Part shown: one piece after another, positions 2,643-44,390 of the stretch
How the letters are laid out: each line of letters starts with the position of its first letter
Position numbering within the stretch: the first letter of the stretch is position 1
NCBI GenBank assembly: GCA_003054665.1
Contig: QAYY01000001.1
Span: forward strand, 981,501 to 1,045,500
Direction: 5' to 3'
DNA from: Opitutaceae bacterium EW11
Lineage (GTDB): Bacteria; Verrucomicrobiota; Verrucomicrobiia; Opitutales; Opitutaceae
Length of the DNA: 64,000 nt
Translations under genes and position numbers: made by a program
Notes under the pieces: generated by a model
Seen by the model: the letters and a program-made list of their open reading frames with translations, nothing else
What the model was told of the DNA's origin: nothing
The model's database searches: none

Positions 2643-3899
2643 TCAACGCGCCTCCGGTGCTTCCGAGAAAACCACCCTGCCTTCGCGCACGGTGAAGCGA
2701 ACTCGGGAAAACGCCGCAACGTCGGCCATCGGATCGCCTTTCAAGACGACCAAGTCCCCGTCCGCACCGGCGACCACGCGTCCCGAATGCTCGGCTGCTC
2801 CAAGCCGGCGCGCCGGAGCGGTGGTCAGCGACTCGAGCAGTTGACGCGGCGTGATTCCACCGTCGGCCAACAAGCGATACTCCCGCGTCAGGTCCTGGTA
2901 GTCGGTGAGGAAACCGACATCGGTGCCGAATAGAATCTCGCCGCCCGCTTGGACAAAACTCTTCACCTCCCGCACCACCCCGGGGAACGCCTTTGTGCGG
3001 CTGAAAAGCGTCACGGTCGGGACCAGCGCGATGTGCGCCTTTCGCAAGTCCGCCACGGTTCGTTCGGTCCAGTTCTCCGGATCCTCGACCGTGTGCCCCA
3101 ACACGTCGACTCCCGCAGCGAGAGCCAACCGCACGCCTTCCACGGTCGAGGGATGCACAAAGACAATCTTGCCCAAGCGGTGCGCCTCGGCCGCGGCCGC
3201 CTTGGCGATCTCCGGGGCCATCGAAACCAGCGCGATGTCGCCGTTGCGGCGAACGCCTGTGACGAGGAAGAGCTTCACGACGTCGGCGCCCGCGGCGACG
3301 TTCGCCTGCACCGCGCGCACCGCCTCCTCCGGAGTTTTCGGCGTGGGCAGCAGCGCAACGACGTCCGCCGGCACCGTTTCCGTCACGTAAAACGGCACTC
3401 CATTTGTCGGATACAACGGCAGGCCGGCGGTGAGGATCCGCGGGCCAGGCACCTCGCCCGAATCGATCCTTCTCCGCAGCGCCGTCGTGTTCGAGATGTC
3501 GGAGCCCAGGTCCAACACCGAGGTGAAGCCGTACCGCGTGAGCATCGCCTGGAGGGAGCGCTGGAGTTCCGCTTGGGGACGGGACGCGGCCCCGGTCCAC
3601 TGCGGCTCCGTGAAATGCACGTGGCAGTTCCAGAAGCCCGCGACGATCGTGTCCCCCGAGCAGTCGATCACGCGCGCCCCCGCGGGCGCCGCGATCCGGT
3701 CGCGCGGACCTACCGCGGCGATCCGTCCGTCCTTCAGCAGCACCGCGCCGCCGACCAGCGGCTCGACGCCGGGCGCCGCGACGATGCGCGCACCGGTGAG
3801 GAGGAGCGGCTCAGGCGAACCCGTCGGGGCCGCCGAGGCGCAGGAGAGGACCGAAGCAAATAGGGCAAGAGCGGAAGCGAACCTGGGCAGAGGGAACAT
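2643..3899 (-). CDS. Secreted amidohydrolase (imidazolonepropionase/prolidase-like)
   Basis: 418 residues with an N-terminal signal sequence (LALFASVLSCASA). The Cys in SVLSC could be a lipidation site, but the residue before the Ser is atypical for a lipobox. The mature part begins with the usual amidohydrolase beta sandwich (LLLTGARIVAAPGVEPLVGGAVLLKDGRI). Metal-ligand candidates follow in GFWNCHVHF (HxH), KIVFVHPST, DVLGHTVED and ILFGTDVGFL. Such enzymes hydrolyse cyclic amides or dipeptides using one or two metal ions. The substrate is not predictable. Position in the periplasm or on the surface follows from the signal sequence. Confidence 0.85.
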   Translation of the reverse strand: MFPLPRFASALALFASVLSCASAAPTGSPEPLLLTGARIVAAPGVEPLVGGAVLLKDGRIAAVGPRDRIAAPAGARVIDCSGDTIVAGFWNCHVHFTEPQWTGAASRPQAELQRSLQAMLTRYGFTSVLDLGSDISNTTALRRRIDSGEVPGPRILTAGLPLYPTNGVPFYVTETVPADVVALLPTPKTPEEAVRAVQANVAAGADVVKLFLVTGVRRNGDIALVSMAPEIAKAAAAEAHRLGKIVFVHPSTVEGVRLALAAGVDVLGHTVEDPENWTERTVADLRKAHIALVPTVTLFSRTKAFPGVVREVKSFVQAGGEILFGTDVGFLTDYQDLTREYRLLADGGITPRQLLESLTTAPARRLGAAEHSGRVVAGADGDLVVLKGDPMADVAAFSRVRFTVREGRVVFSEAPEAR

Positions 3900-3997
3900 C
3901 GGCTGAAGAAAGCGCCCTTTCCCGACCAGGCAACCGCAGCGCGCGGATACGCCCGCGTCGCTCCGGTCTCCCCAAGATCGGCGTCACACGCCGCCGC

Positions 3998-4447
3998 TCA
4001 CTCCCAATAACCTTCGTAGTAGCGATACGCGTTGCCTTCGCGTTCCCAACGCGGCGCCACCCAGACTGCGCCCTCGCGCGGCGGAAGCTCCCAGCGTCCG
4101 GATATCCAGACGTAATGGGTGTCGCGATACGTCCAGTATCCGGGGATCCAGACGTGTTTCGGCGACGGTTGCTCCAGCACGGGCTCCTGCTGAGGAGCCG
4201 GAGGCGCCTGGGTGACGACCACCGTCTGGGCAGGCGTCATGGGAGAGCCGGAGCCCGACTGCGGCGCGGTCTGAACGACAACCGGAGCCGAAGCGGGAGG
4301 CGTGGAGGGCGGCGGGGCCGATACGACGTGCGACTCGGGCTCGGAGGCACAACCTGCAAACGCGAGCGCGGCAGCCGATCCGAGAACCAGCGCGCAAACG
4401 CTCGAACGATTTCGGCGGGGGGAAGAATGCGGGGTTTTCGTTTTCAT
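3998..4447 (-). CDS. Small lipoprotein with YxWxxGxW-type repeats
   Basis: 149 residues from the ATG at 4447, chosen because it gives MKTKTPHSSPRRNRSS followed by a hydrophobic stretch and the lipobox AFAGC; a longer frame upstream adds only unlikely sequence. After the Cys comes a Pro/Ser/Val-rich spacer, then three aromatic repeats: KHVWIPGYWTYRD, HYVWISGRWELPP and VWVAPRWEREG. The repeats resemble the YXWGXW repeat family, whose role is unknown and which is common in exported proteins. A GGAG-like sequence lies close to the start. It should be anchored to a membrane by its lipid. Confidence 0.75.
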   Translation of the reverse strand: MKTKTPHSSPRRNRSSVCALVLGSAAALAFAGCASEPESHVVSAPPPSTPPASAPVVVQTAPQSGSGSPMTPAQTVVVTQAPPAPQQEPVLEQPSPKHVWIPGYWTYRDTHYVWISGRWELPPREGAVWVAPRWEREGNAYRYYEGYWE

Positions 4448-18246: not shown

Positions 18247-19062
18247 CTACCCTTCCACCAGCATCGGCGGGGCGCTCGCCGGGGACTCGATTTCGGCGGG
18301 TTCGTCGTCTTTCAATCGCACTCCGCTGAGTTCGAGCCGCGCCGACTTCTTCAAAAGCAGCGCGAGCTTCCGTGCCGCCTGTATCGGCGGAAGCCCCTCC
18401 GCGCGGATGTTCGAAACGCAGTTGCGGTCCGCGTCCGTGCAGGACTGCCGCGGCCGATAGGTGAAATACGCGCCAAGGCTGTCCGGCGACCCCAGCCCGG
18501 GGCGTTCGCCCAAAAACAGGATGGTGTGCCGCGCGCCCACGACTTCGCCGACGTCGTCCTGCAGCTTCACGCGAGCGAGCGGCACCACGAAGATCGGGAA
18601 GATCGACCAACCCTCGCTCTCGAGCTGGCGCACGAGGGGAACGATGGTCGCGGCCGCATGATTTTCCGCCGCGCGCGCCGCCAGTCCGTCGGAAACCAGA
18701 ATCGCGAGATCCCTCCTGCCCCAGGCGTTCGCGGCGTTGCGCAGCCAGGTGCGGGAAACGTCGGCCAAGCGCCGGCCCAGGTCCGGGCGCAGGAGGTAGG
18801 TCTCGCGGTTCGGCACCGCCGTGGTCAGCCACTCCGTCGGCAGACCGTCATGGCGGAGCTGCCGGATGATGCCGTTGGCGTCGAAAGCGGCGTTCACCGC
18901 ATCCCTCGCCCGGGCATGCGCCAGCCGGAAATCGAGCTGCGAAACCGTGCGCAGGCTTCCGCCCGATCGCCCGAGCGCGATGCGCGCCGAGGTGTAGTGG
19001 GAAAGTGAACACCAGGAATCCGGCCCCGCGGGTGCCGGCCGTCGGCTGTCATTCGATGGCAT
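18247..19062 (-). CDS. eutC: Ethanolamine ammonia-lyase small subunit
   Basis: 271 residues. The family pattern is clear: ARIALGRSGGSLRT, LDFRLAHARARDAV, LLRPDLGRRL, DLAILVSDGLAARA and DDVGEVVGARHTILFLGERPGLGSPDSLGAYFTYRP, then the Cys-containing stretch SCTDADRNCVSNIR. With EutB it forms the coenzyme-B12-dependent lyase that splits ethanolamine into acetaldehyde and ammonia; EutC contributes to cobalamin binding. Its start overlaps the end of eutB by 14 bases, so the two are translated together. A C-terminal extension of about 20 residues (DDEPAEIESPASAPPM) is unusual but not disruptive. Confidence 0.97.
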   Translation of the reverse strand: MPSNDSRRPAPAGPDSWCSLSHYTSARIALGRSGGSLRTVSQLDFRLAHARARDAVNAAFDANGIIRQLRHDGLPTEWLTTAVPNRETYLLRPDLGRRLADVSRTWLRNAANAWGRRDLAILVSDGLAARAAENHAAATIVPLVRQLESEGWSIFPIFVVPLARVKLQDDVGEVVGARHTILFLGERPGLGSPDSLGAYFTYRPRQSCTDADRNCVSNIRAEGLPPIQAARKLALLLKKSARLELSGVRLKDDEPAEIESPASAPPMLVEG

Positions 19063-20431
19063 GGGCGAGAAGAGCGTGACGCTCGTCGATCCTGCGCAGG
19101 CGCTTTCCGTCTTCGGAGATGTGCATGGCCTCGAGCCAGGCCTCGAACTCCGGGGCGGGGCGAAGGCCGAGCGTCTGTCGCAGGTAGTGGCTGTCGTGAA
19201 AGGAGGTCGATTGGTAGCCCAGCATGATGTCGTCCGCTCCGGGCACGCCCATGATGTAGTTCACGCCGGCCACGCCGAGCAGGGTCAGCAGCGTATCCAT
19301 ATCGTCCTGATCCGCCTCGGCGTGGTTGGTGTAGCAGACGTCCACGCCCATCGGCAGCCCCAGAACCTTTCCGCAGAAATGGTCCTCGAGTCCGGCGCGG
19401 ATGATTTGTTTCCCATCGTACAGGTACTCCGGCCCGATGAAGCCCACCACGGTGTTCACCAGCAGCGGATCGAAGTGGCGCGCGACCGCGTAGGCCCGCG
19501 CCTCGCACGTTTGCTGATCGACCCCGTGGTGCGCTCCGGCGGAGAGCGCCGCACCCTGGCCGGTTTCGAAATACATCACGTTCTGACCGACCGTGCCGCG
19601 GCCCAGCGCGAGCGCGGCCTGGCGGGCCTCGGAGAGCAGCGCCAGGTTGACGCCGAAGCTCGCGTTCGCCGCCTCGGTTCCCGCGATCGATTGAAACACG
19701 AGATCGACCGGTGCGCCGCGGCGCATCGCCTCCATCTGCGTGGTGACGTGCGCCAGGACGCACGACTGCGTCGGGATCTCGTAACGTCGAAGAAGATCGT
19801 CGATCAGCTTCAACAGTCCCTCCACCGCCGGGACGCTGTCCGTGGCGGGGTTGATTCCGATCACCGCGTCTCCGCAGCCGTAGAGCAGCCCGTCGATGAT
19901 CGACGCCGCGATGCCCCGCGGGTCGTCGGTCGGATGGTTGGGCTGCAGCCGGACCGCGAGCCGCCCGGGCTGCCCGAGCGTGTTTCGAAACGCCGTCACG
20001 ACGCGTCGCTTTTGAGCGACCAGGATGAGGTCCTGGTTGCTCATCAGCTTCGAAACCGCGGCGACCATCTCGGGCATGAGCCCCGGCGAGACCGCCTCGA
20101 GAGTCGCCCCCGTCGTTCTGTAGTCCAGCAGCCAATCGCGGAATTCGCCCACCGACAGCGCGGCCACGGGCGAAAACGCCTCCGCATCGTGCGTATCCAA
20201 GATCAGCCGCGTCACCTCGTCGGACTCGTACGGGACCAGTGGCTCGTCGAGGAAACGGCGGAGCGGCACGTCGGCGAGACATTGCTGGGCCGCCACGCGC
20301 TCCTCGGCGGACTCAGCCGCGATGCCGGCCAGTTCGTCGCCCGACCGCTTCGGCGTCGCTTTCGCCAGCAGATCGCGCAGCGAGGAGAAGCTGTGGCGTC
20401 GGGCGCCGACGAGGCACGAATAGGTGCGCAT
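19049..20431 (-). CDS. eutB: Ethanolamine ammonia-lyase large subunit
   Basis: 460 residues from ATG 20431 (MRTYSCLVGARRHSFSSL), the usual EutB length. Conserved parts include LLAKATPKRSGDELAG, VRLQPNHPTDDPRGIAASIIDGLLYGCGDAVIGINPATDS, FQSIAGTEAANASFGVNLALL, VMYFETGQGAALSAGAHHGVDQQTCEARAYA and VGFIGPEYLYDGKQIIRAGLEDHF. It is the catalytic subunit of the B12-dependent lyase. The permease gene ends 17 bases upstream and eutC overlaps downstream, giving one operon. EutA reactivase, EutR and shell proteins are absent nearby. Confidence 0.98.
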   Translation of the reverse strand: MRTYSCLVGARRHSFSSLRDLLAKATPKRSGDELAGIAAESAEERVAAQQCLADVPLRRFLDEPLVPYESDEVTRLILDTHDAEAFSPVAALSVGEFRDWLLDYRTTGATLEAVSPGLMPEMVAAVSKLMSNQDLILVAQKRRVVTAFRNTLGQPGRLAVRLQPNHPTDDPRGIAASIIDGLLYGCGDAVIGINPATDSVPAVEGLLKLIDDLLRRYEIPTQSCVLAHVTTQMEAMRRGAPVDLVFQSIAGTEAANASFGVNLALLSEARQAALALGRGTVGQNVMYFETGQGAALSAGAHHGVDQQTCEARAYAVARHFDPLLVNTVVGFIGPEYLYDGKQIIRAGLEDHFCGKVLGLPMGVDVCYTNHAEADQDDMDTLLTLLGVAGVNYIMGVPGADDIMLGYQSTSFHDSHYLRQTLGLRPAPEFEAWLEAMHISEDGKRLRRIDERHALLAHAIE

Positions 20432-20448
20432 GGCGGAGCAGGATTCGT

Positions 20449-22020
20449 TCAGCCGATCGGCGTCGGGGCGGGCGCCAGATCGCCGGTTCCGGCCGGCGCG
20501 GCAGGCGCCGCGACACCCTTGATCGAGGTCACCGGCGGCCCCTTGAAGACCTTGCGCACGCCCAGCCACCAGCCGAGCGTCAGGAGCGCCACCGCGCCGA
20601 TCAGCGCATTCAGGGCGAGATCGTTGGGCGGCTGCACGCCGATCCAGACGATCAGGCCCACGAAGGCCACCGAGATCGCCGCGAGGGTCTTGTAGAGAAC
20701 GGGACCGAGGTCGAACGGCCCCATTTTCGTCCACGTTTTCCCGTAGGCGACGATCCCCGCCACCGCCGGCATGACGTACGAGATGTAGAGGAAAATCACA
20801 CAGGCTGCCGTGAGCGTGGAATACGCCGGGGCGTAGAGCGTCGAGCCCACCGCGAGCGCCGCCGTGGTCCAGATCGCCGTCACGGGCGTCTTCCATTTCG
20901 GCGAGACCTTGCGCAGCGCCTTCGACGCCGGCAGTCCGCCGTCGCGGGCGAAGGCGAAGATCATGCGCGACGTCGACGTCACGCAGGCGAGGCCGCAGAG
21001 GAAATTGGATACGACGATGCCGATCCAGAGGAGTTTGCCGAGCGTGCCGGGCAGGACCTGCTCCATCAGCCACGGGAAAACGTTCGCCCCCTGCTTGGCG
21101 GCGTCGGCCAGACTGGGCATCGCGACCACGAAGGCCGAAACCATCACCCAGCCGAAGAGACCGGAGAGATAGACAGAGCGGAGGATGCCCTTCGGCACGT
21201 TTTTCGCGGCGTCGACCGTTTCCTCCGAGGTGTGCGCCGAAGCGTCGTACCCCGTGATGGTGTAGATCGGCCACATCAACCCGAGCAGCAGCATGGTGAG
21301 CGAACTCGCGTGGGCGGGCCAAACGCCGCCGCCGGCGTCGCCGCTGAAATTCGTGAACGTGAACAGGCGTCCGACGTCGTGGCTCGGCGCGAAGACGAGC
21401 ATCGCGGCGGTGAGCGCGATCGCGACGGCGAAGATCAGGTAGCCGCTGAAATCGGTCAGCAGCGTGACCGCCCGGATGCCGAAGTGGTTAAAAAGCGCCT
21501 GAACGAGAGTGATAATGCTCACTCCGACGATCTGGTGGACGACCGTGAGTTTGCTCGGATCGATTCCGATCATCGGTCCGATGAAATTCACGAATAGGCT
21601 GTACGTGCCGACGTTCACGGCCGCGGTGACAAACACCACGCCGGCGAGATTGAACCACGCCGTGGCCCAGCCCCAGCCCTTGCCGCCGAGGATGGAGCTC
21701 CAGTGATAAAGCCCGCCGGCCGTCGGAAACGCCGAAGCCACCTGCGCCATGCACAGCGCGACGACGAGGCAGAGCGCCACGCCAAGCGGCCATACGATGC
21801 CAGCCGCCGCGCCGCCCACCGCGCTGACGCCCAGCTGCAGCGAGGTGATGCCGCCCGCGAGGATGCAGATGATCGAAAAGGAAATGGCGAAGTTGGAAAA
21901 CCCGCTCATCCGCCGCACGAGTTCCTGTGCGTAGCCCATGCTCTCGAGGAGCTTGGTGTCTTCCGACGCACGCGCCGAAGCCGCCGTGTGTCCCGACGCG
22001 CCCTTCTTGGTTGCTGACAT
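20449..22020 (-). CDS. eat: APC-family permease, probable ethanolamine transporter
   Basis: 523 residues from ATG 22020. About twelve transmembrane helices with the amino-acid permease signatures SGFSNFAISFSIICILAGGITSLQLG near the first helix, AGGLYHWSSILGGKGWGWATAWFNLAG and TGYDASAHTSEETVDAAKNVPKGILRSVYLSG. The resemblance is to the GABA/choline/ethanolamine branch. Direct coupling to eutB and eutC (17-base gap) makes ethanolamine the likely substrate, as in the eat-eutBC operons of Pseudomonas. The C-terminus is a short Ala/Pro-rich tail. A sigma-54-type promoter lies about 55 bases upstream. Confidence 0.9.
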   Translation of the reverse strand: MSATKKGASGHTAASARASEDTKLLESMGYAQELVRRMSGFSNFAISFSIICILAGGITSLQLGVSAVGGAAAGIVWPLGVALCLVVALCMAQVASAFPTAGGLYHWSSILGGKGWGWATAWFNLAGVVFVTAAVNVGTYSLFVNFIGPMIGIDPSKLTVVHQIVGVSIITLVQALFNHFGIRAVTLLTDFSGYLIFAVAIALTAAMLVFAPSHDVGRLFTFTNFSGDAGGGVWPAHASSLTMLLLGLMWPIYTITGYDASAHTSEETVDAAKNVPKGILRSVYLSGLFGWVMVSAFVVAMPSLADAAKQGANVFPWLMEQVLPGTLGKLLWIGIVVSNFLCGLACVTSTSRMIFAFARDGGLPASKALRKVSPKWKTPVTAIWTTAALAVGSTLYAPAYSTLTAACVIFLYISYVMPAVAGIVAYGKTWTKMGPFDLGPVLYKTLAAISVAFVGLIVWIGVQPPNDLALNALIGAVALLTLGWWLGVRKVFKGPPVTSIKGVAAPAAPAGTGDLAPAPTPIG

Positions 22021-22074
22021 AGGTGAAGTGTTCGAACCGCCGGGAGACGCCGGCTCGTGGGGCGCTCGCCTAAC

Positions 22075-22091
22075 AGCATACGCGGTGCCAG
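22075..22091 (-). promoter_or_regulatory. Sigma-54 promoter candidate for the ethanolamine operon
   Basis: On the minus strand the sequence is CTGGCACCGCGTATGCT. It matches the -24/-12 consensus YTGGCAC-N5-TTGCW at every position but one (ATGC for TTGC), with the correct 10 bases between the GG and GC pairs. Transcription would start near 22064, giving a leader of about 44 bases before the permease ATG. Confidence 0.65.
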
Positions 22092-22157
22092 CACCCTCGG
22101 CCGCTCGGTCGCGGGAGCGCGAGCCGCTGGCCCGCGCTCCCGGGGGGGGTATCTCAC

Positions 22158-22178
22158 CGGCATCGGATTCCGATGCCG
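22158..22178. promoter_or_regulatory. Perfect dyad, candidate upstream activator site of the ethanolamine operon
   Basis: Arms CGGCATCGGA and TCCGATGCCG are separated by a single T. The centre lies about 104 bases upstream of the start point expected from the sigma-54 promoter, the normal place for an NtrC-type activator site. No activator gene is present in the window. Confidence 0.55.
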
Positions 22179-22264
22179 AGGCGCGGACGGCGCCGCGCCC
22201 TCCAGCGTGGATGCACGACCTGTTTCGGAAGGCGCGACGAGCGAACCTCACAGGCGTGCCGAAT

Positions 22265-22286
22265 CCCGCAATCGCGCGCTTGCGGG
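22265..22286 (-). terminator. Hairpin downstream of the alcohol dehydrogenase
   Basis: Arms CCCGCAA and TTGCGGG enclose an 8-base loop about 80 bases after the dehydrogenase stop. There is no T-run, so a terminator role is only possible. It lies in the 344-base gap 22021-22364, which holds no gene. Confidence 0.3.
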
Positions 22287-22364
22287 TGGATCGGCGCCTC
22301 CCCACGACGACATCTTCGTCCGATCTGGAGGGCGCGCCGCCGACTGGCCCTCTCGCTCCGATGT

Positions 22365-23444
22365 CTAATCGACCCGGATCACGATCTTCCCGAAATGCCG
22401 TCCGGATCCCATGTGGTGAAACGCCTCTTTCGTCTCCTCCCACGAGAACACGCGGTCGATCGCGGGCTGCAGACGGGCCAGGGCGAACGCGCGATTCATT
22501 TCGACGAACGACTGACGCGAGCCGACGAGCACGCCCCGAACGCGGGCTTTCTTCCGCAGCACACGGAGCGGACTCAACCCGCCTTCCACACCTGCGAGGT
22601 ATCCGATGACATAAACGCTTCCGCCGACCGCGACCGAGTCCAGCGACTCCGCCATCGTGTTGGCCCCCCCGACCTCGATCACATGCTCCACGCCCTCGCC
22701 GTTCGTCAGCTCAGCCACCTGTTTTGACCATTCGGGGTGGCGCCGGTAGTTGATTCCGGCATCGGCGCCGAGACTGCGGGCCCGCTCGAGCTTCTCGTCG
22801 CTGCTCGAGGTGACGATCACCCGCGCTCCGGCGAGCTTGGCAATCTGAAGGGCGAAGATGGCTACGCCACCCGTCCCCTGCACGAGCACGGTCTCGCCCG
22901 GCTTCAGGCCGCCTTGCACGATCAACGCGTTCCACGCCGTGACCGCCGCGATCGGCAGCGTCGAGGCCTGCTCGAACGACAAATAGTCGGGAATCCGCAC
23001 GAGCCCCGACGCCGGGAGCAGCGCCCGCTGCCGCAGCAGGCCGGGGAGCGGTCCGCCGAGCGTCTCGGCTCCGGCCGGCGGGCGTTCGCCGCTGTCCCAA
23101 ACCTGCCAGAAATTCGGCATCGCCCTGTCGCCGACGCGGAAACCGGTCACTCCGGCGCCGAGCGCCAGGATTTCGCCGGCAACATCGGACACGGGAATGA
23201 ACGGCGGCGCGTAGTGGCCGGCTGGATATTGTCCGCGCAGGATGTCGTAGTCGCGAAAGTTCAGCGATGCCGCGCGGATGCCGAGCAACACTTCGCCCGG
23301 GCCGGGCTCGCCCACCGGGCGGTCGACCGGCTTGAGATTGTCGACCGAGAATTCCTTTTCGATCAGGTAGGTGAAGTTCGTTGCCGGGCGGCGCGTGCTG
23401 GCGGGAGAAGCGGGACCGGTGCTTTCGAGAATGGCAGGATTCAT
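22365..23444 (-). CDS. NAD(P)-dependent alcohol dehydrogenase (medium-chain, quinone-oxidoreductase-like)
   Basis: 359 residues from ATG 23444 (MNPAILESTG). The GroES-like part has GPGEVLLGIRAASLNFRDYDILRGQYP and VSDVAGEILALGAGVTGFRVGDRA. The nucleotide-binding part has GETVLVQGTGGVAIFALQIAKLAGARVIVTSSSDEKLERARSLGAD. The catalytic-zinc ligands of classical alcohol dehydrogenases are not in their usual places, so a zinc-free reductase is likely. It is divergent from a LysR regulator across 113 bases that include a perfect dyad, which suggests that this regulator controls it. The substrate is unknown. Confidence 0.9.
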   Translation of the reverse strand: MNPAILESTGPASPASTRRPATNFTYLIEKEFSVDNLKPVDRPVGEPGPGEVLLGIRAASLNFRDYDILRGQYPAGHYAPPFIPVSDVAGEILALGAGVTGFRVGDRAMPNFWQVWDSGERPPAGAETLGGPLPGLLRQRALLPASGLVRIPDYLSFEQASTLPIAAVTAWNALIVQGGLKPGETVLVQGTGGVAIFALQIAKLAGARVIVTSSSDEKLERARSLGADAGINYRRHPEWSKQVAELTNGEGVEHVIEVGGANTMAESLDSVAVGGSVYVIGYLAGVEGGLSPLRVLRKKARVRGVLVGSRQSFVEMNRAFALARLQPAIDRVFSWEETKEAFHHMGSGRHFGKIVIRVD

Positions 23445-23516
23445 GGTTTGAAGGCGTCGGCGCGAAGGACCATCCCCCGCGCTTCGACGCTGAAACAATA
23501 TCGCCGGGGCCCCTTG

Positions 23517-41461: not shown

Positions 41462-44293
41462 TTAGAACTGCTTCTCGAGGCGAACGTGCCAGAAGGCCGG
41501 CTCGACCGTGTTGATGCCGGCCGTCGTTCCTGTGCCGTCCATGGGATCAACAGGTCCCTTGGCGTCGAAGACGTTGTTCACGCCCACGGTGACCTCGATA
41601 CCGCGGAAGCCGCGATAGGTGACGGACACGTTGGTCGTGTACTGCGGCTTGACGGTGTAATGGGCATAAACCGAGTCACCCATATCGTACCAGCTGCCGA
41701 GGAGGAGCGAGCGCTGACGTTTGCCGCGGTAGACCTCGAAGAGGTTGACCGCCCAATCGCCCTTGCGCCAGTTGATCTGCGCGGTGCCGTTCCAGCGGGC
41801 ATTCAGGTAGGAACCCACCAGGTTGCTGCCGTCGACAGACGTCTCGTTGATCCAGGTCGCGTTGGCGGCGACGTACAGATTGCCGAGATTGTTCGTCTTC
41901 CAGAGATAGCTGGCACCGAGATCCGCGCCGCGGTATTCGCCGCGAGCAACGTTCACGTAGTCGTCGCGGATATACAGCACTTCGTTGGTTGCCGGGTCGC
42001 GAACGACCTTGCCTGCGAAGAGCGGGTTACCCGTAGCCGCACCGGTGAAGAACTCGGAGTAGCTGTACAGATCGCTCAGCTGAACCAGAAGGTCCTTCTG
42101 CTGGAAGTGGAAGTAGTCGAGCGTGAGCTCCAGGCCCTTGAGTTTGCCCTCGGGCGCGAAAACCACACCACCGTACCACGTATCCGTCAGCTCAGGATGG
42201 AGGTTGCGGTTACCAGCAACCACGGTCTGCACCTGGTCGATCTTGCTTCCGGTGACCGGATCCGTCGCCTGGTACGACGAGAACGTCGTCTGGGAAGACG
42301 TGAACAGGTAAGCGAGGTCGGGGGCCTTGAAGGACTTCGCGTAGGAAGCACGGAAAGCCAGCCAGGTGAACGGCGAGTATTTGACGCCGATCTTCGGACG
42401 AGCGCGCTTGGCGAAGCCCGGATCGCTGTAGCTCTCATAGCGAGCCGCAAGCTGGGCTTCCAACGAGTTGACAAAGCGCATTCCCTTCAGGATCGGAACA
42501 TCCAACTCGGCGAAGATCGAAGTCACACGGCGATCGCCGAAGCTGCTGGTGCCCTCGCTGCCGCCGAGGATATTGCCCGTGGCATTGAGATCGGACTGGA
42601 TCTTGCCGAACGACTCGTTGCGGTGTTCACCGCCGAGACCGAGCTGAAGCGGACCCGCGGGCAGTTGGAAGATCGGGCCAGACGTCTGGAAGTCATAGCT
42701 CGTGTATTTGATGAAGGCTGACGTCGGATTCTCGACCTCGAGGAAGTCGGCCATCGCCTTTTCATTCCAGCCGAACCAGTTGAAGTAGACGCGATCATTC
42801 TGCGGCGTCGCAGGGTTCCAGGCCAGGGATCCGTCACCGTTGCGGGTCAAGCCCATCAAGGCCTGCTGCATACGATAGTCCGGGATCGTGCCGCGGTTCA
42901 GGTTGTTGACGTCGTTCTTGCTGTAGACGACTGCCGATTCCCAGGTCCAGCCTTCGAGGGCGGAAATGTTGCCCTTCAGGCCGGCGAGGACGCGCGGGGT
43001 GTCGGAAGTGACGTCGCTGATACGAGCACCGTTCTCGACCATGCGGCGACGGCCGTTGGAAATATCGACGCCCCACGGATTGTACTTGTTGTACGCCGGG
43101 ATGATCATTCCCACGCCGGGCGAGAGGCCCCACGAGGTCTCGATGTCAGCCGGAGTCGCCGCCGAATAAACGAGGCTGTGAGTGCGGTTGAACGAGAGTT
43201 CCGCAAAAGCCGAGAGGTCAGGCGTGAACTCGAAGTCCGCACGCGTGTACATCGCGTACTTTTCCATTTCCGGGAAAAGACCGTTCGACTCGTTGTAGTT
43301 GTAGTAATTCGGAGACCTCGTCGCCGCCGCAGTCGTCGGATTGTCCGTGGGAGTGGCAAAGCTGCGCAGGCCAACTCCGGGAACCCGGACGTAGCCCGGA
43401 TAACCACGAGAAGAACGGTTATCGCCGATGTAGCCGTCGGAAACAGGATCCGTCAGACCGGCATCCTTGAGGTAGGCGTCAACCGAGGAGAAACCCGCAG
43501 CCTGATAGCCTTCGATGATGTACTTCGGATTCGCTTGCTGGCCAACCGAGGTTTTGTCCACGTTGGCGGCGCTGGGGACGTCGCGCGAGAAGACGGCGTT
43601 GCGCTTCTCATAGCTGATCGAAGTGGAAACGGACATCTTGCCCGAAACAGCTCCGACCATGGCGGACGCTTTCCGCATCAAGCCGTCGGTGTTGAAGTAA
43701 TTGCCGATCTCGGTGCTGACGTTCAGCCCCTGGTAGTCCTTGCGTAGGATGAAATTCACTACACCAGCCACGGCATCGGAACCGTACAGAGCGGAACCGC
43801 CATCCTTCAGAATTTCGACGCGCTCGATCGCAGCTTCCGGAATGCTGTTCAGGTCGAACATCGTCTGGAAACCGTTGAAACCCGGCACGGCGTAGGGCAC
43901 CGCACGCCGTCCGTTGATCAGGACGAGCGTCGAGTTGTTGCCCAGGCTGCGCAGGTTGACCGTGCTCACGCCAGGCGTGAAGCTCGTGCCGGAATCGGTC
44001 GGCGTCAGAGCCTGGCCGCTATTGAACGGCATGGCCCGGATGGCTTCGCCCACGGTGGTGAAACCTTGGACCTGCATGTCCTGGAACGTAATCGCCTGGA
44101 CCGGGCTGACCGACTCGGCGTCGACGCGCTTGATACGCGAGCCCGTGACCTCGAACTTTTCGAGTTTCTGCGGTTCGTCGTCTTTTTTGGTGGAAGCAGC
44201 GTCCTGCGCGTAGGCAGACACCGCGAAGAGCACGGACGATGCTCCCGCTGACAGCGCAAACGCCGTCAGCCTCTGTGAGCGAGACTTGCTCAT
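41462..44293 (-). CDS. TonB-dependent outer-membrane receptor
   Basis: 943 residues from ATG 44293 (MSKSRSQRLTAFALSAGASS); a longer frame upstream is not signal-like. After the signal peptide (ending AYAQ) comes KLEKFEVTGSRIKRVDAES, then the plug with VGEAIRAMPFNSGQ, VNLRSLGNNSTLVLINGRRA and IPEAAIERVEILKDGGSALYGSDAVAGVVNFILRK. The barrel is Tyr/Asn-rich and ends in HVRLEKQF. It is divergent from the XdhC/MocA pair, which may hint at a purine-like or molybdate-related ligand, but this is weak. Codon use and start resemble the first receptor. Confidence 0.95.
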   Translation of the reverse strand: MSKSRSQRLTAFALSAGASSVLFAVSAYAQDAASTKKDDEPQKLEKFEVTGSRIKRVDAESVSPVQAITFQDMQVQGFTTVGEAIRAMPFNSGQALTPTDSGTSFTPGVSTVNLRSLGNNSTLVLINGRRAVPYAVPGFNGFQTMFDLNSIPEAAIERVEILKDGGSALYGSDAVAGVVNFILRKDYQGLNVSTEIGNYFNTDGLMRKASAMVGAVSGKMSVSTSISYEKRNAVFSRDVPSAANVDKTSVGQQANPKYIIEGYQAAGFSSVDAYLKDAGLTDPVSDGYIGDNRSSRGYPGYVRVPGVGLRSFATPTDNPTTAAATRSPNYYNYNESNGLFPEMEKYAMYTRADFEFTPDLSAFAELSFNRTHSLVYSAATPADIETSWGLSPGVGMIIPAYNKYNPWGVDISNGRRRMVENGARISDVTSDTPRVLAGLKGNISALEGWTWESAVVYSKNDVNNLNRGTIPDYRMQQALMGLTRNGDGSLAWNPATPQNDRVYFNWFGWNEKAMADFLEVENPTSAFIKYTSYDFQTSGPIFQLPAGPLQLGLGGEHRNESFGKIQSDLNATGNILGGSEGTSSFGDRRVTSIFAELDVPILKGMRFVNSLEAQLAARYESYSDPGFAKRARPKIGVKYSPFTWLAFRASYAKSFKAPDLAYLFTSSQTTFSSYQATDPVTGSKIDQVQTVVAGNRNLHPELTDTWYGGVVFAPEGKLKGLELTLDYFHFQQKDLLVQLSDLYSYSEFFTGAATGNPLFAGKVVRDPATNEVLYIRDDYVNVARGEYRGADLGASYLWKTNNLGNLYVAANATWINETSVDGSNLVGSYLNARWNGTAQINWRKGDWAVNLFEVYRGKRQRSLLLGSWYDMGDSVYAHYTVKPQYTTNVSVTYRGFRGIEVTVGVNNVFDAKGPVDPMDGTGTTAGINTVEPAFWHVRLEKQF

Positions 44294-44390
44294 AGTTTGT
44301 GGTTGGTTGTGTTGGGTTGCGAAGAGTGCGCTAGATCGCGCCAGCGCGTTGCTCTTGGGCGGACACGTATGCAAATATTGTGCCTGTTTT

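Follow-up and report, generated by a model that had tools for sequence, protein, structure and literature searches.

A probable sigma-54 promoter and a most likely unrelated dispersed repeat upstream of the eat-eutBC genes of an Opitutaceae bacterium

The window (the whole 64-kb stretch of DNA analysed here) carries a short set of ethanolamine genes on the minus strand. The first, eat, encodes an ethanolamine permease-like amino-acid permease (20449-22020; PF13520, E = 1e-52) and is followed by eutB for the large subunit of ethanolamine ammonia-lyase (19049-20461, exact start uncertain; PF06751, E = 4e-223) and by eutC for the small subunit (18247-19062; PF05985, E = 5e-79). These Pfam matches bear out the order permease-eutB-eutC given in the initial annotation of this DNA. 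Upstream of the permease and on the same strand, the gene calls place a zinc-type alcohol dehydrogenase-like gene (22365-23450; PF00107, E = 6e-30), and the two genes are separated by 344 nt (22021-22364). This gap consists of two parts, one proximal to the permease (22021-22112) and the other a distal mosaic that takes up most of 22113-22322. Among the genome matches listed with the gap as the query (E <= 0.01, self match aside), none touches the proximal part; this part holds a -24/-12-like site, which RpoN probably recognises, and then a conserved inverted repeat in the leader. The dispersed repeats of the gap sit in the 3' region of the upstream dehydrogenase gene, and the distal part is a mosaic of them, with a dyad as the core of one.

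The -24/-12-like site, CTGGCACCGCGTATGCT, occupies 22075-22091 on the minus strand and is a putative sigma-54 promoter with a predicted transcript start at about 22064. It had been described as matching the consensus with correct spacing and one mismatch. The position and the GG-N10-GC spacing hold, but there are two mismatches to TGGCACGN4TTGCW, or one if the G that follows TGGCAC is disregarded. The window contains nine matches with two or fewer mismatches versus 9.7 ± 3.0 expected from shuffles, so by itself the match has no significance at the scale of the window. Scored with a sigma-54 matrix of assumed weights, the site has P ~ 0.004 when compared with 200-nt stretches drawn at random from the window and ranks second among 80 upstream regions sampled from the same genome, itself included. 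The gene for the sigma factor, rpoN, which the earlier proposal had presupposed, is present in the genome as a single match (PF00309, E = 3.5e-15). A scan of 21900-22500 confined to sigma-70-type sites found none. The top -24/-12-like score of the 80 upstream regions belongs to AGGCACAATATTTGCA at 44370-44385 of the window (minus strand); the large ORF whose called start comes ~150 nt later (41462-44233) resembles, by reading, a TonB-dependent receptor.

The permease is scarce among near relatives, being detected in 3 of 100 genomes of the family at E <= 1e-60 and in 3 of 372 genomes of the order at E <= 1e-120, with the home genome included in both counts. One scan of named genomes confirmed 96 relatives, the best 80 of which were retained; relatives are cited here by L numbers. 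Among the four whose permease is at least 77% identical, three (L070, L072 and L081) keep the site, and the shared form TGGCA-N7-TGCT lies at a similar distance before the ATG throughout: at -70 in the window, -78 in both L070 and L072, and -74 in L081. The fourth, L071, has the closest permease (81%) and a degenerate -24 half (TTGAGTTGGCGTGCT). Over the 200 nt upstream, identity is 45-56% between the window, the L070/L072 pair and L081. L070 and L072 are 81% identical to each other in this region, so the four sites represent about three lineages, the window included. The proposed sigma-54 promoter thus gains from the presence of rpoN and from conservation in L070/L072 and L081, and is weakened by the degenerate site of L071; on sequence grounds, a sigma-54 promoter before eat-eutBC is probable. 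As to gene content in these relatives, no eutB follows the permease of L071 up to the contig end (5028-7762), where a different ORF occurs instead, and L070 has an ORF between eutB and eutC (3896-4366) that reads like a nucleoside deaminase.

Farther afield, L080, L082 and L083 share a weaker GG-N10-GC site at -47 to -49 that ends in TTGC (P = 0.30, 0.04 and 0.053, respectively). Their upstream regions are ~80% identical, so they count as one observation. In L080 and L082 eutB does come after the permease, yet the site is weaker. No sigma-54-like site was seen upstream of the permease in L073 and L137, and the 78 permease loci scored show no excess of sigma-54 sites: five have P <= 0.05, about what chance predicts. 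That scoring covers 78 of the 80 loci, with L116 and L132 omitted because the gene start falls outside the locus, and it took L072 from a wrong start (P = 0.75); from the right start the site is present. The region upstream of -24 contains no inverted repeat common to L070, L072 and L081.

The stretch that separates the promoter from the permease start contains a conserved leader motif, CCCACGAGCCGGCGTCTCCCGGC (22039-22061, minus strand; ~ +3 to +25 of the predicted transcript), which includes the inverted repeat GCCGG-N6-CCGGC (22039-22054). Its conservation is apparent in an alignment of the window with L070, L071, L072 and L081, in which the conserved stretch from promoter to start codon reads CCCACGMGCCGGSGTMTYCCGGC. 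The pattern GCCGG-N2-7-CCGGC occurs in six of the eight upstream regions compared: with a spacer of six or seven in the window and these four relatives (shuffle P between 0.002 and 0.011 in each case), as well as in L080 (shuffle P = 0.058); it is absent from the upstream regions of L082 and L083. Because the spacer varies by one, an RNA hairpin would fit slightly better than an operator, but the folding z-scores of the leader are weak (-0.2 to -2.0). As for a regulon built on the leader motif, the genome has one exact site and six more at three mismatches, with one in the control. Nor does the leader belong to a known RNA family by Rfam, which gives no match at E <= 1 in 21900-22420.

Upstream of the promoter is the perfect palindrome CGGCATCGGA-T-TCCGATGCCG (22158-22178). 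It is a 10+1+10 dyad centred at 22168, 104 nt from 22064, in agreement with the arm length and distance given in the initial annotation. The 21-mer CGGCATCGGANTCCGATGCCG has 11 exact occurrences in the 6.4-Mb genome versus none for the reversed control, which places the dyad far beyond chance, and with up to three mismatches there are 25 occurrences, again with none for the control. Given this excess across the genome, the dyad cannot be read as specific to eat-eutBC. A search of the home genome identifies it as the core of an interspersed intergenic repeat of ~65 nt with two adjacent hairpins, of which the window copy spans 22146-22215 (plus strand). A 70-nt query around the dyad has at least 48 genome matches at E <= 1 and at least 21 copies, window copy included, at E <= 4.2e-10; the latter number is a lower bound that comes from scoring the best 40 of 82 candidates. 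In nearly all of the listed copies, the shared sequence extends well past the palindrome, and the consensus is TCACCGGCATCGGATTCCGATGCCGAGGCGCGGACAGCGCCGCGCCCTCCA. Five pair changes within the palindrome affect both sides, a number reached in 0 of 500 shuffles. Two of the five come from L171, a copy in which half of the dyad is broken (5 of 10 pairs), leaving three (L160, L163 and L169) from otherwise intact dyads. The second hairpin of the repeat has no such both-side changes.

By simple codon-model gene calls, none of the 21 listed copies is inside a gene; 15 occupy gaps between tandem genes, six lie in convergent gaps and none is in a divergent gap. If a quarter of gaps are assumed to be divergent, the absence from such gaps has P ~ 0.002. 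Since a copy between tandem genes is also 5' of one of them, an effect on the next gene may exist. A -24/-12-like site (GG-N10-GC, two or fewer mismatches) occurs within 300 nt of the window copy only; the other 20 listed copies have none. A search of 99 other family genomes, with at most the best nine candidates scored per genome, did not detect the element at E <= 1e-6. The sequences of 15 relatives contain only weak matches to the repeat (best E of 0.02, in L080), and none of these lies within the ~350 nt that precede the permease. The dyad had been proposed as the binding site of an activator. As far as sequence can tell, this is contradicted by its membership in a dispersed intergenic repeat, which has at least 21 copies and was not found just before the permease in the relatives' loci compared, and the proposal is very likely wrong. 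For the same two reasons we ruled out an enhancer role; the core of a dispersed repeat is no evidence for an operon-specific enhancer. We likewise ruled out that the dyad acts as an intrinsic terminator for transcription in the permease direction, as no T-run follows it, and the one terminator-like match in 21900-22500 lies elsewhere and on the other strand. The dyad would instead be a REP-like element, persistent in intergenic DNA and able to form a strong hairpin, and is most likely unrelated to the sigma-54 activator.

Two further modules contribute to the distal mosaic. A second inverted repeat, the hairpin module CGGGAGCGCGAGCC/GGCCCGCGCTCCCG at 22112-22142, is dispersed in the genome more weakly than the dyad repeat: its pattern occurs at six distinct places with at most one mismatch and has 32 matches with up to three mismatches, compared with seven in the control. 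The third module spans 22231-22322 and is best matched at ~22273-22322. With the whole gap (22021-22364) as query and the best 40 of 135 candidates scored, there are at least 51 genome matches at E <= 0.01, and 25 of the 51 listed fall in this third module.

The repeat resembles REP/BIME elements in being a short GC-rich palindrome with many copies between genes, in forming mosaics of several modules, and in having no listed copy between divergent genes. REP families are often larger than the some twenty copies listed here, and the repeat has no match in the 99 other family genomes sampled, for each of which few candidates were scored. GTAG repeats are reported as abundant in Opitutus terrae, a member of the Verrucomicrobia (PMC3733652). 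Unlike the families described there, the listed copies have, by eye, no GTAG, GTGG or CGTC tag at the borders of the core. Literature on Verrucomicrobia, Opitutus terrae or Opitutaceae that concerns repeats or ethanolamine makes no mention, mostly in titles and the opening lines of abstracts, of eat-eutBC regulation or of the dyad repeat.

The initial annotation had extended to this locus the logic of Pseudomonas, in which, according to work attributed to Lundgren in 2016, the PA4022-eat-eutBC operon of P. aeruginosa reportedly depends on EatR (PA4021) and RpoN. The likeness is one of a short eut operon in the order eat-eutB-eutC with a -24/-12-type promoter ahead of it. Published accounts place the EatR gene just upstream of the Pseudomonas eat operon in divergent orientation, describe EatR as a sensor of acetaldehyde (PMC5821096), and assign it two PAS domains (PMC8694187). 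In the Opitutaceae genome, PF00158 has 17 matches; two weak ones (L017 and L018) were left out as other AAA proteins by reading, leaving 15 sigma-54 activators. The NtrC-type activators that the initial annotation expected elsewhere in the genome are thus there, and none is beside the operon, whose upstream neighbour is the same-strand dehydrogenase gene. By Pfam, 13 of the 15 carry a receiver domain and one (L006) a GAF domain, while L015 is without a recognised sensor domain at E <= 1e-4; no PAS domain was found in any of the 15. The operons also differ in that the one in P. aeruginosa includes an acetaldehyde dehydrogenase gene, whereas here a zinc-type dehydrogenase gene lies upstream on the same strand, and in that the upstream palindrome here is a dispersed repeat. 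With no PAS-bearing candidate and no adjoining activator gene to set against the divergent, PAS-bearing one of P. aeruginosa, the EatR analogy is unsupported in its specific parts. If RpoN is used, the activator would be unlike EatR in architecture, going by those found, and not adjacent; it would be encoded elsewhere and would probably be of the response-regulator type rather than an EatR homologue. When the home activators were compared by tblastn with 82 permease-locus sequences, including two that overlap others, matches appeared in L119 alone; the upstream flank covered in L070 and L072 is under 0.8 kb. In L119, a planctomycete contig, an activator fragment (2-712) begins at the end of the contig and stops immediately before the permease, which has the same orientation, so adjacency of activator and permease does occur elsewhere.

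So, what does the gap do? We consider it somewhat likely that the sigma-54 site drives eat-eutBC and that the dyad is an unrelated repeat. The main competitor, which we regard as possible though doubtful, holds that the -24/-12 match is accidental, that transcription starts at an unrecognised promoter of the housekeeping type or continues from the dehydrogenase gene by read-through, and that the conserved block is the binding site of a different protein or part of the leader element. The two mismatches and the chance-level number of matches in the window are what this would predict, as are the same-strand gene ~345 nt upstream, the lack of a sigma-54 excess over 78 permease loci, and L071, which has the leader repeat but lacks the -24 GG. 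It does not readily account for TGGCA-N7-TGCT with -24/-12 spacing at a nearly equal distance in the window and three relatives, or for the lack of a sigma-70-like site, a scan that leaves other promoter types aside.

The other two alternatives give the dyad a regulatory function. That an EatR-like activator binds it as an upstream activating sequence and switches on the sigma-54 promoter seems to us barely credible, even though the spacing of 104 nt is right, the palindrome is perfect, rpoN and 15 activators exist in the genome, and L119 has an activator fragment next to a relative of the permease: none of the 20 other listed copies has a -24/-12-like site within 300 nt, the relatives that retain the site showed no copy at this promoter, and no PAS-bearing, EatR-type activator is among the 15. 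Highly improbable, too, is an operator regulon, with a DNA-binding protein acting on many genes through the dyad family. The both-side palindrome changes in three intact copies, the long identical cores shared among copies, and the position of 15 of the 21 listed copies between tandem genes, hence 5' of one, are compatible with it, but the shared sequence runs past the palindrome into the second hairpin and the neighbouring modules, and the listed copies include none in divergent gaps and six of 21 in convergent ones, where no promoter is expected.

Should the promoter be confirmed, short ethanolamine operons under sigma-54 would be known from a second phylum, there with a different activator, and sigma factor and activator would be separable in evolution. 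A fuller scenario, in which the short eut operon of one Opitutaceae lineage uses sigma-54 without EatR under a two-component response regulator encoded elsewhere, the leader repeat adds a second layer of control, and palindromic repeats specific to the lineage have replaced the sequence expected to hold an enhancer, is speculative and on balance unlikely. The locus also suggests caution in repeat-rich genomes, where a perfect dyad that is suitably spaced from a promoter may be an interspersed element; a genome-wide count quickly tells the two apart. In L167, GTAGGCCGGGTGCCCCCACCCGGC, which resembles a GTAG-tagged REP, lies ~65-90 nt to the left of the 70-nt repeat stretch, and similar stretches of the GGGTGCCC type flank other copies of the repeat. 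The tyrosine transposase profile PF01797 has two matches in the genome. The dyad element has no match at E <= 0.01 in the stretches around them (L066 and L067), and L067 contains a stretch resembling the hairpin module (1674-1733) just 3' of its PF01797 match.
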